NCBI GenBank assembly: GCA_034521575.1
Contig: JAXHMJ010000002.1
Location: forward strand, 714,706-778,705
Direction: 5' to 3'
DNA length: 64,000 nucleotides
Source of the DNA: a candidate division KSB1 bacterium
GTDB lineage: Bacteria; Zhuqueibacterota; Zhuqueibacteria; Residuimicrobiales; Krinioviventaceae
Under the pieces are notes generated by a model, which made no database searches, was not told the origin of the DNA, and saw nothing but the letters and a program-made list of their open reading frames with translations. This document shows positions 15,342-22,873 of this stretch, in pieces. Positions within the stretch are counted from its first letter, which is position 1. Each line of letters begins with the position of its first letter. The position numbers and the translations under genes are program-made.

Positions 15342-17657
15342 TCAAAGTTCTACTTTAACGATATATTCTAAAAGGATACCAGCTATAGTTTTGCCCTGTT
15401 CTCCAACCTGGAGAACAGGACCGACACAGGAAGGACAGCCGCTTTCGCAGCCGCATTGGGTAATGTGAGATTTTGCCGCATTGGCTATGTCCGGATAAAT
15501 CGAGTAAATTTTTTTACTGTACCCCACACCGCCGGGATAATGTTCCCAAATAAAGAATGACGGCTGCCCGGACAACGGAGAACGCACCATGGGAAGCGAA
15601 TCAAAGTCTCTCCTGTCTCCCATGATGAAAATCGGGATGATGTTGCGCATCACATTGGTCACCCCTTTCAGGCCATCTGCCAGGCTTTGTTTGTCAATAC
15701 CCAAATGATCATGTATGTCTTCCGGAAATGAATACCAGAAGGACTGTGTGTGTATTTCAATTTCAGGGAGATGTATTTTTCCCCAACCAATGTTCTCGTG
15801 GGTGTTGAATTTAATTTTTTTATACATAGTGGCCACGCTGGTCACAACCACCTCGCCATAAGCGGCCAAATGTGTTTCTTGCTGGTTCTGCTCACTCACA
15901 TCCAAAACGCGTAGGTTCGTTTTCAGCTGAGCATCTGTATAATGATCGACTTTGACCTGATGTGTATAAGCTTTACGTCGCTGCCAATCCAGTTTATCCA
16001 CATAGTATTGTTCACCGCCATGCAGGTAAATAGCTTCGTCATGTACCATTAGCTGAGCCGCAAACAGATCAATTTCTCCAATAACCCGTTCTTTGCGGGT
16101 ACGATCCACAATCACCACATTTTCCTGGGCGGCGCTGCGCAAACTCACGCTTTCCGCCGGATAAGTTTCCGCCATCCAGTGCCATTTTTCACCGGAAAAA
16201 TGAATAATATGTTTTTCTTCAAGGTATTCCAATATATCCGGTGTGCTGCTCAATCCATTTTCGCCGTTAAAGTGTATCCCATACTGTTCTGACTGTGAAA
16301 ACGGTAATTCAAAAGCTGCGCATTTGATATGACTTAATAAAATAACCAGATTGTCAGGGTCAACGATACCGGCTTCGGGGGAATTTTCAAAAAACCAAGT
16401 CGGATTATTGGCAATATACTGATCCAGTGGTGAGGATGACGATACAATGATGGACAATGCCGTTTCAGAGCCGCGTCCGGCGCGCCCGGACTGCTGAAGC
16501 GTACTGGCTATGGTGCCGGGATACCCCGCTATAATACTGACCTGGAGCTGTCCAATATCAATTCCCAATTCCAGGGCATTGGTTGAAATAACACCGATTA
16601 TCTCTTTACTCCTTAATCCCTGTTCGATGCTGCGGCGCTCCAGCGGCAAATATCCGCCCCGGTATCCTTTTACTTTGCCGGGATTTTGGTGCGATTTTCG
16701 CATGGCCTCTTTTAAATAGGTCAGCATGATTTCAACATTCATCCGGCTGCGGGCAAATACAATAGTTTGATGATTGTTTGTTAAAAATCGGGATGCAATA
16801 CGTGTGCTTTCTTTGACATAAGAACGACGAATTCCCAATTCGCGATTCACCATTGGCGGATTATACAGGATAAAATGTTTCTCCCCGCGAGGCGCACCAT
16901 TGTTATCCACCAGAGTCATGGTCTCCCCTGTGATTTTTTCGCACAGTTGTCGGGGATTTGCGATGGTAGCAGAACAGCAAATAAATGTTGGCTGGCTGCC
17001 GTAAAACATGCAAATTCGCTTTAATCTTCGAACGACATTGGCAAGATGACTGCCAAACAGTCCACGATAATGATGAATTTCATCAATCACGATATATTTC
17101 AGATTTTCAAACAGCTTGATCCACTGGGTATGATGCGGAAGAATTCCTGTATGCAGCATATCAGGATTAGTAACCACAATATGGCCGGAGGATTTTATTG
17201 CTTTACGTGCGCTGACCGGCGTATCCCCGTCAAATGTATAGCTTTTGATGGAGAAATCAATATCCCGGTTCACAGCATGCAGGATTTCATGAAGTTCAGT
17301 GAGTTGATCCTGAGAAAGCGCTTTTGTCGGGAACAGATAAAGAGCACGGCTTTCGTGTGTTTCAAGAATCGACTGCAGAACAGGCAGATTATAGCATAGT
17401 GTTTTTCCAGAGGCCGTCGGCGTGACAATGACCAGGTTTTTTCCCTGAAAAACGCTTTGAATGGCAGTTGCCTGATGCGTATAAAGTTTATTAATGCCGC
17501 GTTCTTTTAACGTATCGATCAAGGCCGCATCAAGATGTTTTGGAAATTCCGAATAGCTGGCCGCTTGTGCCGGTATGGTTTTCCATTGAGTGACATGATC
17601 AGTAAAATCGCGGTCCCGTTTTAACTGCTCCAATATCTGTTCCAGTGTCAGATTCAC
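15342..17657 (-). CDS. mrfA: MrfA/YprA-type DEAD/H-box helicase with DUF1998 domain
   Basis: 771 residues. Walker A TPTASGKTLCYNLPVL, motif II DEIHHYRGLFGSH, motif III CSATIANP, and motif VI QQSGRAGRGSETALSI mark a superfamily 2 helicase. The C-terminus carries the DUF1998 four-cysteine cluster CGCESGCPSC that binds a metal. MrfA is a 3'-5' DNA helicase that works with the MrfB exonuclease in mitomycin repair. The ATG overlaps the preceding gene's stop (ATGA, 17654-17657), and mrfB follows after eight bases, so translation is coupled along the operon. Confidence 0.93.
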   Translation of the reverse strand: MNLTLEQILEQLKRDRDFTDHVTQWKTIPAQAASYSEFPKHLDAALIDTLKERGINKLYTHQATAIQSVFQGKNLVIVTPTASGKTLCYNLPVLQSILETHESRALYLFPTKALSQDQLTELHEILHAVNRDIDFSIKSYTFDGDTPVSARKAIKSSGHIVVTNPDMLHTGILPHHTQWIKLFENLKYIVIDEIHHYRGLFGSHLANVVRRLKRICMFYGSQPTFICCSATIANPRQLCEKITGETMTLVDNNGAPRGEKHFILYNPPMVNRELGIRRSYVKESTRIASRFLTNNHQTIVFARSRMNVEIMLTYLKEAMRKSHQNPGKVKGYRGGYLPLERRSIEQGLRSKEIIGVISTNALELGIDIGQLQVSIIAGYPGTIASTLQQSGRAGRGSETALSIIVSSSSPLDQYIANNPTWFFENSPEAGIVDPDNLVILLSHIKCAAFELPFSQSEQYGIHFNGENGLSSTPDILEYLEEKHIIHFSGEKWHWMAETYPAESVSLRSAAQENVVIVDRTRKERVIGEIDLFAAQLMVHDEAIYLHGGEQYYVDKLDWQRRKAYTHQVKVDHYTDAQLKTNLRVLDVSEQNQQETHLAAYGEVVVTSVATMYKKIKFNTHENIGWGKIHLPEIEIHTQSFWYSFPEDIHDHLGIDKQSLADGLKGVTNVMRNIIPIFIMGDRRDFDSLPMVRSPLSGQPSFFIWEHYPGGVGYSKKIYSIYPDIANAAKSHITQCGCESGCPSCVGPVLQVGEQGKTIAGILLEYIVKVEL

Positions 17658-20017
17658 GCCTGCGGCTCCTCCTGCTCTTTAAAACGTTTGATCATCCCGC
17701 GTTCACCGGATAATTCGACAATCTCCCCGTCGGTGAATATATCCGTAGCATGTTGAACACTCGTAACGGCCGGCAGCCCGTATTCCCTGGCTATGATTGA
17801 AGCATGCGAAAGGATGCCGCCGGTTTCCATAATCAAACCGGATAGTAAATTAAACACAGGCGACCAGGCCGGATCTGCCGAATGCGTCACCAGAATATCA
17901 CCATATTGGGCCTGTAGTGCCTGTTCATAAGTCTCTGCAATGCGAACTCTTCCGACAGCATGTCCCCGGCTTACTCCGATACCGGTCAGGATGTGTGTAT
18001 TTTTATTTTTTTCTTTGACATGCTTGACCGGCGGTTTACGTCCGAATTCAGAATATTTTTTCCTGTCAATATTGATAACAGCTTGATCATCCGACGCGAG
18101 CAGTTTGAGAAATTCTTTTCGGGTCAAATAAAACATATCGTTTCTGTTATAAAGTCTTTTTTGCGCCATTAGCTTGTCAGCTGTTTTTAACACCGTATGT
18201 CTCATTACAAAAAGAATCTGATGCCAGGCATCCCGCTGATTCTCCCGCAAACGGGTGAATTCCTGCCCATAGTATAAAAGTGTCTTAAAAATCCATTTTA
18301 CCGGGTATCGAACAGACCATGGCAGTGTTTGTATATATTGAATGCACTCGGCTTCTTTTTGTTTGCGTGACTCGTCGAGCCGGCCTATAGAGGCGGTATG
18401 TTCAGTGCGATGTACGGTTTCCAAAAGTTGTTTGATGCGTTCACCGCTCTCGGCCCAGGAAGGCTGGGCGATATCAAGACTTTCAGATCTGTATCCGTAT
18501 CTGGATAAAAACTGTTCAAATTCACGATCGGTTTTGCAATTCTTGAGCGCCAGATTGATCTCGACAGTTTTATTGTGTGCCAGCCCGGATAATAAATCGA
18601 TTGCTTTTAGTGACAATGTGCCGTTGTCAATGCGTTTTAAATATTTTTCCAGTAATATCGAAAAAATATCAGCAAACGTAATACTCCAGCGGTGAATGGC
18701 CAGAAAAGATTCGGTTAACTTTTCCGTCGTCAGAAAAATTGATTTGAATTCTTCAAAAGACTCTGATTGCTCAACCCGGTTTTTCAAGTTTTCAATCATC
18801 GGCATACGTCGTTTGAATTGATTCCATTGCTTGAGATTATAAAACGGCAGCCATTGGAAGGAATGACCGGATAACCGTGTAATCAAATACGGAAGTGCGC
18901 GCACGAAACTGGTGACAGAGTCGTGAAAATCATGGGTGAGCTTTAGTGCTTTACGCTTGTCCTCGGATATCAGATAAACGGGAATTATCGCGTACAGATT
19001 ATGGAATGCGGCCAGCCGGATATACGGCATACCATTAAACAGTCGGGACAGTTTTTTTTCCCTGGCAAGGTGATCATAGCCAAGATACCACAAGGGTTCT
19101 CTGAATGCGTTTTTTACAATTTTTTCATCCAATATGCTCCACCCCAGCGGAGAAAGGGGCTCAACAAAGCGCTCGGCAAAAAAATAATCTGTCCAGGGCT
19201 GGCCTTCTGTATCAAACGCAATTCGACCGTCCTGTATACTGGTGATGGGACGACTCTGCAGTATCCACACCTGCTCTCCATCAAACGCCCACTCAATATC
19301 CTGACCGGCCTGAAAATAATTTTCTATTTTTATCCCCAGTTCAATCAACTGATTAAAATAGTCTGAATGGATAAATGCCTGCAATTTCGGGTTATTAATA
19401 TTGGAAACCTGGATACTCGAGTCTTTTTTATTAACATAAACCTGCACAGGATTTAGAGTGCCGGCGGTCACTTTTTCACAGCTCCCGGGCGCAACCTCAA
19501 TCAACAGGCTGTCTGTTTGGTTCCACACCGGATGACTGGTAAACATAATACCGGAAAACAGTGGTCGCACCATTCTCTGAATGAGAACCGCAATGGTACG
19601 TTTTGACCGGGGATACGAAAAATAACTCATATATTTCATCACCCGCGGATCGTTTATAGAGCGCCATATCTTTTCAATGCTGTCCAGCACTCCATGGATC
19701 GATGTCAAATTGAGGTAGGATTCAAGTTGTCCAGCCCATGACAAAACCGTGTCATCCTCGAATGGAGCGGATGACCGAACAGCAAGCGGGGTCTCTTTTG
19801 AAATATTCCATTCGTGTTTTTCTAGAAAAGATTCGAGTTGTTTTTCAAGATGAATCCGTTTCTGATGAACACAGGCTTTGGCTGAAAGAACAAAAAAATC
19901 AGGAACCGGTATCCCAATTTCATAAAGTTTGGCAAGGACGCAGGCCTTACCCCCTATCAGCTTTGATTTTTTGTTAATAGTTTGTTTTCTGGCATAAAAA
20001 AAATTACGAATCATCAT
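17654..20017 (-). CDS. PEP synthase/rifampicin phosphotransferase-like enzyme
   Basis: 787 residues. N-terminal ATP-grasp domain like pyruvate phosphate dikinase (KLIGGKACVLAKLYEIGIPVP, LAVRSSAPFEDDTVLSWAGQ, SGIMFTSHP, DIEWAFDGEQVWILQSRPI), a central region of about 350 residues without clear homology, and a C-terminal swivelling phosphohistidine domain (ETGGILSHASIIAREYGLPAV). The catalytic His lies in GGILSHAS. The architecture matches rifampicin phosphotransferase and PEP-synthase-like proteins rather than true PpsA, because the PEP/pyruvate TIM barrel is missing; the central domain would set the acceptor. It lies 31 bases after the lipoprotein gene and overlaps mrfA. Antibiotic inactivation is possible but unproven. 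Confidence 0.8.
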   Translation of the reverse strand: MMIRNFFYARKQTINKKSKLIGGKACVLAKLYEIGIPVPDFFVLSAKACVHQKRIHLEKQLESFLEKHEWNISKETPLAVRSSAPFEDDTVLSWAGQLESYLNLTSIHGVLDSIEKIWRSINDPRVMKYMSYFSYPRSKRTIAVLIQRMVRPLFSGIMFTSHPVWNQTDSLLIEVAPGSCEKVTAGTLNPVQVYVNKKDSSIQVSNINNPKLQAFIHSDYFNQLIELGIKIENYFQAGQDIEWAFDGEQVWILQSRPITSIQDGRIAFDTEGQPWTDYFFAERFVEPLSPLGWSILDEKIVKNAFREPLWYLGYDHLAREKKLSRLFNGMPYIRLAAFHNLYAIIPVYLISEDKRKALKLTHDFHDSVTSFVRALPYLITRLSGHSFQWLPFYNLKQWNQFKRRMPMIENLKNRVEQSESFEEFKSIFLTTEKLTESFLAIHRWSITFADIFSILLEKYLKRIDNGTLSLKAIDLLSGLAHNKTVEINLALKNCKTDREFEQFLSRYGYRSESLDIAQPSWAESGERIKQLLETVHRTEHTASIGRLDESRKQKEAECIQYIQTLPWSVRYPVKWIFKTLLYYGQEFTRLRENQRDAWHQILFVMRHTVLKTADKLMAQKRLYNRNDMFYLTRKEFLKLLASDDQAVINIDRKKYSEFGRKPPVKHVKEKNKNTHILTGIGVSRGHAVGRVRIAETYEQALQAQYGDILVTHSADPAWSPVFNLLSGLIMETGGILSHASIIAREYGLPAVTSVQHATDIFTDGEIVELSGERGMIKRFKEQEEPQA

Positions 20018-20048: not shown

Positions 20049-20981
20049 TTACTGTTCTTCATTATAATCTCGAATCAATTCCTGCATCTCCGGGTCATCC
20101 GGAACATCCTCATCCAAAGGTAGTCGCTCTTTGTGGTAGGTGATTATATCCTGATTGCCGTCAAGAACCAACTCCAGTTTGCTTAAATACTTTCCAAGCG
20201 GCGGTGAACTGACCAGTGCAGGCATTTCCCACTGATATTGATTGGCAGCATAATATTGTCCGCCAAGGACAACCACATCAATTTCAGGATTTTTATCCAT
20301 CAGAACCTTTAGATTGGAAAAGGTGCCATGATACAGTAAAATAACAATATCTGCTTTCTTGGACAATTTTGCCAGAGGGTCTTTAATGCTTTCGTAAAGA
20401 GATTTACTTTGAACCTGAATATCACTCGAGTGTTCCGGTACCAGTACGTTTTTGGGCTGACATAAACCTAATATACCAATCTTGATCGGATTCAATGCTG
20501 CATTATTTGATTCAACAGTACTTATCACAAAAGGCTCAAATACTCGTTTCCCGGATTCATAATAGTACACATTTGCAGAAACAAAATCGACATTTGTTTC
20601 CTTTTGTAATTTCAGCAGATATTCCACACCCAGTGAAAAATCCCGTATTCCCGGATTGATGCTTGTGCATCCAAGACGGGAGAGTCCTTTAATCAGATAT
20701 TCGGTGCGCAATCGGTTTTGTTCCATATACCCGCGCAAAAAACCACCGGCATCCACCTGGATTGAATAATCGACTTTTTGCTTTTCCTGTTCGAGTAAGG
20801 TTGCTCTCCGAGCTAACCCGCCATATCGCGCTGTCTTTCACCCGCAGGGCGTAAGATAGCCCATAATATCGTTAGAATGATAAATTGCCAATTTGGACTG
20901 TTGCGCCATCAAATTTTCCGGAGAAGACCCACATCCATACGTGAATAAAAACAGTAAAAAAGCTAATAAAGATTTTTTCAT
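20049..20981 (-). CDS. Metallophosphatase-like lipoprotein with in-frame TGA (candidate selenocysteine at residue 48)
   Basis: 310 codons including one internal TGA at 20838-20840. The start ATG at 20981 has GGAGAG five bases upstream and a near-perfect promoter. Residues 1-17 form a lipoprotein signal (MKKSLLAFLLFLFTYGC). Residues 33-60 read IYHSNDIMGYLTPCG, then TGA, then KTARYGGLARRA, in one frame. Related 5'-nucleotidase-like proteins, as I recall them, carry a second Cys (PCGC) at this place. The rest resembles UshA-type metallophosphatases, but metal-binding motifs are degraded: GIRDFSLG for Asn-His-Glu and LGGQYY for Gly-His-x-His. The function may therefore be redox or metal binding rather than phosphatase. 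Alternatives: a real nonsense mutation or base error, with translation restarting later. It heads the operon with the PEP-synthase-like enzyme and mrfAB. Confidence 0.7.
20799..20818 (-). promoter_or_regulatory. Candidate bacterial SECIS hairpin downstream of the in-frame TGA
   Basis: Leftward transcript: GGUU, bulged A, GCUC, loop GGA, GAGC, AACC, giving eight base pairs. The loop begins 29 bases after the UGA and starts with G, inside the published bacterial SECIS pattern (apical loop roughly 16-37 bases from UGA, G among its first two bases). The same bases also encode the conserved GGLARRA segment, so chance folding is possible. Confidence 0.45.
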
Positions 20982-21013
20982 TTTCTCTCCTGTTGTCCTA
21001 TTTATTAACTTGT

Positions 21014-21042
21014 ATTATAATCAATAATATATCGAAATGCAA
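21014..21042 (-). promoter_or_regulatory. Strong promoter of the lipoprotein-phosphotransferase-mrfAB operon
   Basis: TTGCAT (21037-21042), 17-base spacer, consensus TATAAT (21014-21019), reading leftward. Transcription would start about 26 bases before the lipoprotein ATG. Confidence 0.75.
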
Positions 21043-21049
21043 GATCAGC

Positions 21050-22873
21050 TTAATCGGCATTGACAATAATATAATCCTGAATGACTTTAACGTCAATTTT
21101 GACATTACGTTCCAGATCCAGCACTACGCGGGTAAAACGGTTTTCAGAATGAAATCCGAGCCTTGCCTGCTGAAACGGACCGGTATTTAGCGGTATCACT
21201 TTTTTATCGGCCATGATATATACATCCGAGAGATCAAGCACCACTCTTGGCGGATCGGATAATGAATTGACTTTGGGATCGGTCTTGCCGTTACACTGAA
21301 TTTTCACTGATGTCTCGTCAGCTTTGAGAACATCGAATACTGCAGAGGCTTTGGGAACTTTGGGCGGCTTGTCAAAACTGAATATTTTAAATTCAACGCG
21401 GCGGTTTTCCGCTCTTCCTTCAGGAGTTGCATTTGACGCAATCGGCCGCAATTCTCCATAACCAACCGGCATAAAAAATTTATTTTCAGGAATATCTTCT
21501 TGCTCGTTAAGGAATGAAATGACACGGTTCACCCGCTTGTGAGAAAGGCGGATGTTATACGGGTCAGTGCCGATAGAATCGGTATGACCGGATACCTGCA
21601 CCTGAGCTTCAGGATACGTTTTCAAAATATCCGCAATATTGTGCATCGTATTGAAATATTCAGGTTTTATCTCCCACTTGTTAAAGTCAAAGTTGATCTG
21701 CTTCATCACAACCGTGAGCGTACGACGGTCGGATTTATCAGGGACAATTTCGATGCGATTATCCGAATCCGCAATTTCCTGTATTTTGGCCAGCCGCTCA
21801 TTGATCTGATCCAGCAGTTTTTGTGCCGCTTCTTTTTCTTCTTCTATTTTCATTCGAGCTTGCTGTGCCTGATCAATTTCAGATTGCAAACGCTGTCTGA
21901 TGCCGCTCAGATCGTATTTTTGAGTCTTTAGTTTATTCATTGCAAAGTGGATCGAAAACCGGTGGGCTGAACTTTCAAATGTTTGTATAGGTGCATAAGC
22001 ATAATCAATTCGTGCCAGTGAATTATTCAGCCATTCCGCCGGGATATAGAGCCCGAATCCCAGCGCCCATGGTGTAACTCGGCTGCCGGACAGTGAATAG
22101 CCACCACGCAAAGCCAATAATTGATTATAGATGATTTCAGCGCCAAGATGTATGCTTGCGTCCTGATCGCGAATCCAGATTAAATCACTACTCAGCAAAC
22201 CGGTCAAAGCGTTGTATATTTTCCCATGTCCGGTTATTCCGGTACGAATGGTTCGCGGAAGCGGAGTTTTATAAGTGTCAAACTGGACTTTATTCAAACT
22301 AATATTTTGAACAGCTGCACCGAACGACACATACGGTATATGCAGCTGCATGCCCAAATCCATACCTGCTGCATTTGATGTTTCACCGGCAAGATTCTGA
22401 TGCATATAGCTGAAAGAAACCCCAAAGTCGAGTTCAAACCGTTCGGTTTTATACCAATTGCCGTACCCGAGAGACAGCATCATATCGCCGCTCTGAATGG
22501 TTTCCCCGGTGCTGAAAAAGTCCTGATCCATTCTCTGAATTTCGCCTTCATCAAAATAAGACAACCCGCCGGCTATCACACCCCAGGGTTGAGGGTAGCC
22601 AAAAGCCAAAGATCCCTGCTGAGTATCATCAATCCATTTGTGAAAATTTGCAGTAAGCAGAGTGTGACGTAACCCTCCAACGGCTCCAATATTATAACGA
22701 ACGGCATTGATATCATGAGGTATAGCTGTTACGGCATCACCCAGCGCCACCCGACGCGCTGAAGGATGAACGCTTAAAAATTCGGCGCCATGATACCCCG
22801 CCCCGTTTTGAGCCCAGCCGATTGTACAGGTAAAGAACAATGGTAAAAAGAATAGCAGAAAAGTTCTATTCAT
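21050..22873 (-). CDS. PorV-like beta-barrel fused to OmpA and AMIN domains
   Basis: 607 residues. Signal peptide (residues 1-21, ending GWAQ). Residues about 25-310 are a PorV/UPF0164-type outer-membrane barrel (FLSVHPSARRVALGDAVTA is the family's N-terminal signature). Then a charged coiled coil (about 320-370, EIDQAQQARMKIEEEKEAAQ), an OmpA/MotB peptidoglycan-binding domain (about 380-495: FDFNKWEIKPEY, VSGHTDSIG, GRAENRRVEF), and a C-terminal AMIN domain (about 510-607: PPRVVLDLSDVY, FTRVVLDLERNV). The protein probably sits in the outer membrane and anchors it to the cell wall by two different wall-binding domains. It follows the secreted propeller gene after 26 bases. Confidence 0.85.
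   Translation of the reverse strand: MNRTFLLFFLPLFFTCTIGWAQNGAGYHGAEFLSVHPSARRVALGDAVTAIPHDINAVRYNIGAVGGLRHTLLTANFHKWIDDTQQGSLAFGYPQPWGVIAGGLSYFDEGEIQRMDQDFFSTGETIQSGDMMLSLGYGNWYKTERFELDFGVSFSYMHQNLAGETSNAAGMDLGMQLHIPYVSFGAAVQNISLNKVQFDTYKTPLPRTIRTGITGHGKIYNALTGLLSSDLIWIRDQDASIHLGAEIIYNQLLALRGGYSLSGSRVTPWALGFGLYIPAEWLNNSLARIDYAYAPIQTFESSAHRFSIHFAMNKLKTQKYDLSGIRQRLQSEIDQAQQARMKIEEEKEAAQKLLDQINERLAKIQEIADSDNRIEIVPDKSDRRTLTVVMKQINFDFNKWEIKPEYFNTMHNIADILKTYPEAQVQVSGHTDSIGTDPYNIRLSHKRVNRVISFLNEQEDIPENKFFMPVGYGELRPIASNATPEGRAENRRVEFKIFSFDKPPKVPKASAVFDVLKADETSVKIQCNGKTDPKVNSLSDPPRVVLDLSDVYIMADKKVIPLNTGPFQQARLGFHSENRFTRVVLDLERNVKIDVKVIQDYIIVNAD

Follow-up and report, generated by a model that had tools for sequence, protein, structure and literature searches.

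A short, predicted lipoprotein branch of the UshA-like PCGU selenoprotein family in candidate division KSB1

Introduction

UshA-like proteins carrying selenocysteine (Sec) have been catalogued before. The GOS 2008 account of selenoproteins in ocean samples, in its available portion, lists 'COG0737, UshA-like, CxU' as a selenoprotein family and counts 76 Sec and 92 Cys forms (PMC2398784). The same family appears in two reviews, published in 2022 and 2026. Two NCBIfam models describe such proteins: NF041198 (UshA_like_PCGU, 'UshA-like (seleno)protein') and NF049981 (UshA-like selenoprotein family 2). No demonstrated function for the UshA-like selenoprotein family was found in the literature.

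Here, we analyze a gene in a stretch of 64,000 nucleotides (hereafter, the window) from contig JAXHMJ010000002.1 of a candidate division KSB1 bacterium. Its protein has the same COG and Sec motif as the CxU family of the 2008 account, as far as that account is available. Because of this listing, the two reviews, and NF041198, the window protein represents a short branch within an already recognized selenoprotein family and not a new family, which refutes the statement in an earlier note on this DNA that no selenoprotein had been described in the family. What is new is a short, cytochrome-less lipoprotein or secreted branch in KSB1, with conserved neighbours and much stronger evidence; in its available portion, the 2008 account covers neither KSB1 members nor covariation of a hairpin, loss of the metal site, or the gene neighbourhood. 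An uncultured phylum adds a clean selenoprotein branch to the UshA-like family. Overall, the gene very likely specifies a true selenoprotein belonging to the UshA-like PCGU family, which would be an exported lipoprotein acting as a periplasmic selenol/thiol redox enzyme.

Gene organization and reading frame

The minus strand from 20981 to 20049 contains a single 310-codon frame, in which the sole internal stop is a TGA at codon 48. Translation of this strand thereby bears out the initial reading of one frame broken only at that codon. The frame runs through MKKSLLAFLLFLFTYGC and later GYLTPCG-TGA-KTARYGGLARRA to a TAA stop at its end, and the TGA is preceded by NDIMGYLTPCG and followed by KTARYGGLARRAT. 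The motif PCGU corresponds to residues 45–48 of the protein. The features of the gene are as follows.

20049..20981, minus strand: UshA-like selenoprotein gene, 310 residues with Sec48 and a TAA end (from translation with TGA as U).
20838..20840, minus strand: in-frame TGA, predicted to be read as Sec48 in the motif Pro-Cys-Gly-Sec (from the TGA/Cys column in 50 loci and the Sec machinery of the genome).
20931..20981, minus strand: signal peptide and lipobox, KKSLLAFLLFLFTYGC, with Cys17 as the predicted lipidated residue.
20985..20991 (approximate), minus strand: Shine-Dalgarno-like AGGAGAG, 5' of the ATG (from the sequence).

Cys17 matches the lipobox (FTYGC), and a majority of the members from the same GTDB family carry an equivalent Cys. 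Standard annotation would truncate the protein at codon 48 or begin it at an internal GTG. Immediately 5' of the gene, an Rfam match to PyrD_leader (window 20976–21043) reached 16.5 bits, below the gathering score of 47, and was treated as chance.

Family assignment, fold, and predicted function

The best family match of the window protein is NF041198 (E = 9.8e-42, 143.2 bits), with residues 10–271 aligned to positions 3–265 of the profile. The two have in common a UshA-like N-domain and the P-C-G-U motif. The score lies below the curated 275-bit cut-off for the full-length equivalog, chiefly because the window protein lacks the C-terminal part included in the 519-position model; its metal site is also more degenerate than that of NF041198. 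Long relatives with a fused domain score 308–315 bits on this model, above the cut-off. The long relatives L048, L050, L057, L060, L061, L063, and L073 comprise about 440–465 residues, and in L048 and L057 a C-terminal Cytochrome_C554 multihaem domain is fused to the selenoprotein domain, whereas the short forms have no haem domain. NF049981 contains a related UshA-like domain (E = 6.9e-10), but the window protein scores 38.8 bits against its cut-off of 140 and carries CxU instead of the listed motif CxxU. A Pfam search with the window protein gave no match.

In the AlphaFold2 model of the window protein (pLDDT 93), residues 26–310 superpose on the N-terminal metallophosphoesterase domain shared by the 5'-nucleotidases CD73 and UshA and by SoxB (Foldseek, VIA-align), with Z values of about 30–31 for CD73 and UshA and about 28 for SoxB. 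Specifically, model residues 28–310 match CD73 26–331 only; the protein ends after the N-domain, without the C-terminal substrate-binding domain of these enzymes. Most of their metal and catalytic ligands are also absent, and Cys-Gly-Sec is present instead. We take the dimetal ligands of CD73 to be D36, H38, D85, N117, H220, and H243, with H118 as the catalytic residue. D38 and H218 are the only dimetal-ligand equivalents retained in the window protein, in which M40, G80, I112, R113, and Q241 stand at the positions of CD73 H38, D85, N117, H118, and H243. Lacking the full set of dimetal ligands and the C-terminal substrate domain, the window protein falls outside the UshA/CD73 5'-nucleotidases. 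The loss of metal ligands is graded, since several relatives retain D85- and H243-type residues.

From these features we infer that a redox role is rather likely. After export, the product would be anchored to the membrane by its lipid, and in the periplasm its Cys46-Gly47-Sec48 motif would cycle via a selenenylsulfide as a selenol/thiol redox enzyme. The calcineurin-like phosphoesterase fold, with most of its metal ligands lost, would act as a 'retired' scaffold, and electrons might be taken or given through c-type cytochromes, such as those fused in the longer relatives, or through thiol carriers. Metal-site loss, the invariant Cys-Gly-Sec, and the cytochrome fusion in relatives together provide a concrete redox hypothesis for the family.

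The main alternative that keeps Sec in the protein assigns Sec/Cys48 and Cys46 to metal binding or to the role of a hydrolase nucleophile, in a SoxB- or UshA-like manner. The fold is the same as that of SoxB and UshA, D85- and H243-type ligands are kept in some distant relatives, and the relatives L059 and L064 match the SoxB model at about 1e-33. However, the window protein has other residues at the equivalents of H38, D85, N117, H118, and H243 and no C-terminal substrate domain, and the CxU motif and the cytochrome fusion in relatives favour redox chemistry. We therefore consider the hydrolytic or metal-binding role unlikely and retain the selenol redox role for the motif. A broader proposal, which we offer tentatively, is that the short lipoprotein or secreted branch across KSB1 may have exchanged metallophosphoesterase chemistry for selenol redox catalysis, its Cys-Gly-Sec motif lying next to the former metal site.

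Retention of the TGA codon across the phylum

The protein or a relative was detected in 71 of the 82 genomes of the same phylum, and 54 of the 82 gave a match with one internal TGA. Codon-by-codon reading of column 48 in 50 homologous loci, all from this one phylum, revealed TGA in 45 and TGC or TGT in five. The comparison of homologues suggested in the earlier note thus places Cys codons opposite the TGA and recovers TGA itself in most loci. Cys46, Gly47, Sec/Cys48, Gly54, Gly55, Arg58, Arg59, Asp77, Gly79, Gly172, and Gly263 are invariant in an alignment of 37 sequences, and the 262 codons 3' of the TGA are kept as protein throughout the phylum. The named relatives are MAGs, labelled mostly as candidate division KSB1 or Calditrichota.

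The earlier note had cautioned that a single-base error converting TGC or TGT to TGA would produce the same picture. Some homologues do carry Cys at column 48, and selD (see below) provides at least one probable indel in the assembly. Nevertheless, TGA occupies the same column in 45 of the 50 loci, which come from independent assemblies, and the covarying hairpin described below accompanies the TGA members, while its equivalent is absent in four of the five Cys members. A sequencing error is therefore excluded for any practical purpose, the many independent genomes with TGA ruling it out. TGA is a normal terminator elsewhere in the window, as the initial reading had held, closing 12 of the 38 open frames of at least 250 codons; that the gene is a pseudogene or is cut short at codon 48 is nonetheless extremely improbable, given the phylum-wide conservation of the post-TGA codons as protein, the conserved synteny, and the well-formed predicted fold. 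That the frame stays open beyond the TGA would also suit a reassigned code with a standard amino acid or general readthrough, a reading made hardly credible by the same 12 terminations, the restriction of column 48 to TGA or Cys, and the presence of the Sec pathway in the genome.

More remote matches, obtained by a scan with an alignment of the post-Sec part, show PCGU in MAGs of Deltaproteobacteria, Krumholzibacteriota, Neomarinimicrobiota, and Anaerolineales; the scan selected for the GGLARRA pattern and is not a census. No related loci were detected among genome contigs searched with the single window protein or among viral contigs searched with the homologue L024. A tblastn search of plasmids gave low-identity matches, mostly to UshA/SoxB-type relatives.

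Selenocysteine pathway and SECIS-type hairpin

The search for selA, selB, selC, and selD proposed in the earlier note was productive: the host genome contains selA (1.6e-160), selB (7e-108), selD, and a tRNA-Sec with the anticodon TCA, which scores 72 bits (gathering score, 47). The selD gene is split over two abutting frames in the assembly, by a frameshift near a G run (L053, 1204–2132, on contig C2 of the window's genome, beside a contig end). If true, this frameshift would disable Sec synthesis; it is probably an assembly error, which is likelier than a real shift. Phylum-wide, selA was found in 50 of the 54 genomes with the TGA form, compared with 13 of the 28 other genomes (Fisher p = 6e-6), and was not found in the other four TGA-form genomes. 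The host genome was also searched for formate dehydrogenase alpha as an independent selenoprotein, and none was found.

SelB binds the SECIS hairpin and delivers Sec-tRNA to the UGA codon. In the window, a candidate for this element lies downstream of the TGA.

20799..20818, minus strand: SECIS-type hairpin, GGUU-A-GCUC[GGA]GAGC-AACC (from the fold, synonymous covariation, coordinated switches, and absence in four of the five Cys homologues).

The hairpin comprises 8 bp with one bulged A and an apical GGA loop 28 nt after the TGA. SelB would bind it and bring Sec-tRNA to UGA48. The bacterial SECIS model specifies a stem of 4–16 bp, a loop of 3–9 nt with G in the first two loop positions, a loop location 16–37 nt after the UGA, and a minimum free energy of at most -7.5 (PMC13188914). 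The window hairpin agrees with this model, reaching the energy limit only with flanking sequence: the upper stem alone gives -7.2 kcal/mol, slightly short of -7.5, and the UGA-proximal region with flanks gives -12.4 to -16.1 kcal/mol. The z-score of the wider hairpin region against shuffles is only -1.3. An Rfam search returned no SECIS match.

The strong evidence for the hairpin comes from comparison among genes. At the codons for Ala57 and Arg59, the third bases are largely free to vary as regards the protein, and in 44 Sec genes they are U-A in 33, C-G in nine, U-G in one, and C-C in one. They pair as U-A or C-G in 42 of the 44 (Fisher 1.8e-8). Arg58, whose CGG codon gives the GG of the loop, is CGG in 43 of the 44 Sec genes, while CGG accounts for 20% of Arg codons in the neighbouring window genes. 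On the protein tree, the stem pairs underwent about eight coordinated double switches at synonymous third bases. The covariation score from pair counts was reached by none of 500 shuffles, and 88% of cells are paired, compared with 25–43% after sliding the partner. The hairpin is absent in the Cys members L064, L068, L071, and L072, and the fifth Cys homologue, L069, has a different but stable fold. Together, the conservation, the Sec machinery, the covarying hairpin, and the Cys homologues sustain the proposal of Cys-Gly-Sec in a UshA-like lipoprotein, and on this sequence evidence TGA48 almost certainly encodes Sec.

The remote TGA members L070 and L073 lack the standard hairpin form and may have a different SECIS shape. 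A natural Sec/Cys switch is seen in L064, which has Cys (TGC) at the Sec codon and no hairpin; selA was not found in its genome (G026, 96% complete).

Genomic context

The gene is flanked on the same strand by two neighbours.

21050..22873, minus strand: PorV-like / OmpA / AMIN outer-membrane protein, directly upstream (from synteny).
17654..20017, minus strand: PPDK_N / PEP-utilising-enzyme protein, directly downstream (Pfam PF01326, PF00391).

The PorV-like / OmpA / AMIN gene is in the same place in 10 of the 19 regions compared, and the PPDK_N / PEP-utilising gene adjoins the selenoprotein gene in seven of the 19. In about ten genomes, a PorV/OmpA-like gene lies upstream and either the PPDK_N / PEP-utiliser gene or an MrfA-type helicase gene lies downstream. 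The PPDK_N / PEP-utiliser still adjoins the selenoprotein gene in the distant class members L083 and L087, and this retained adjacency suggests that the two are functionally linked.
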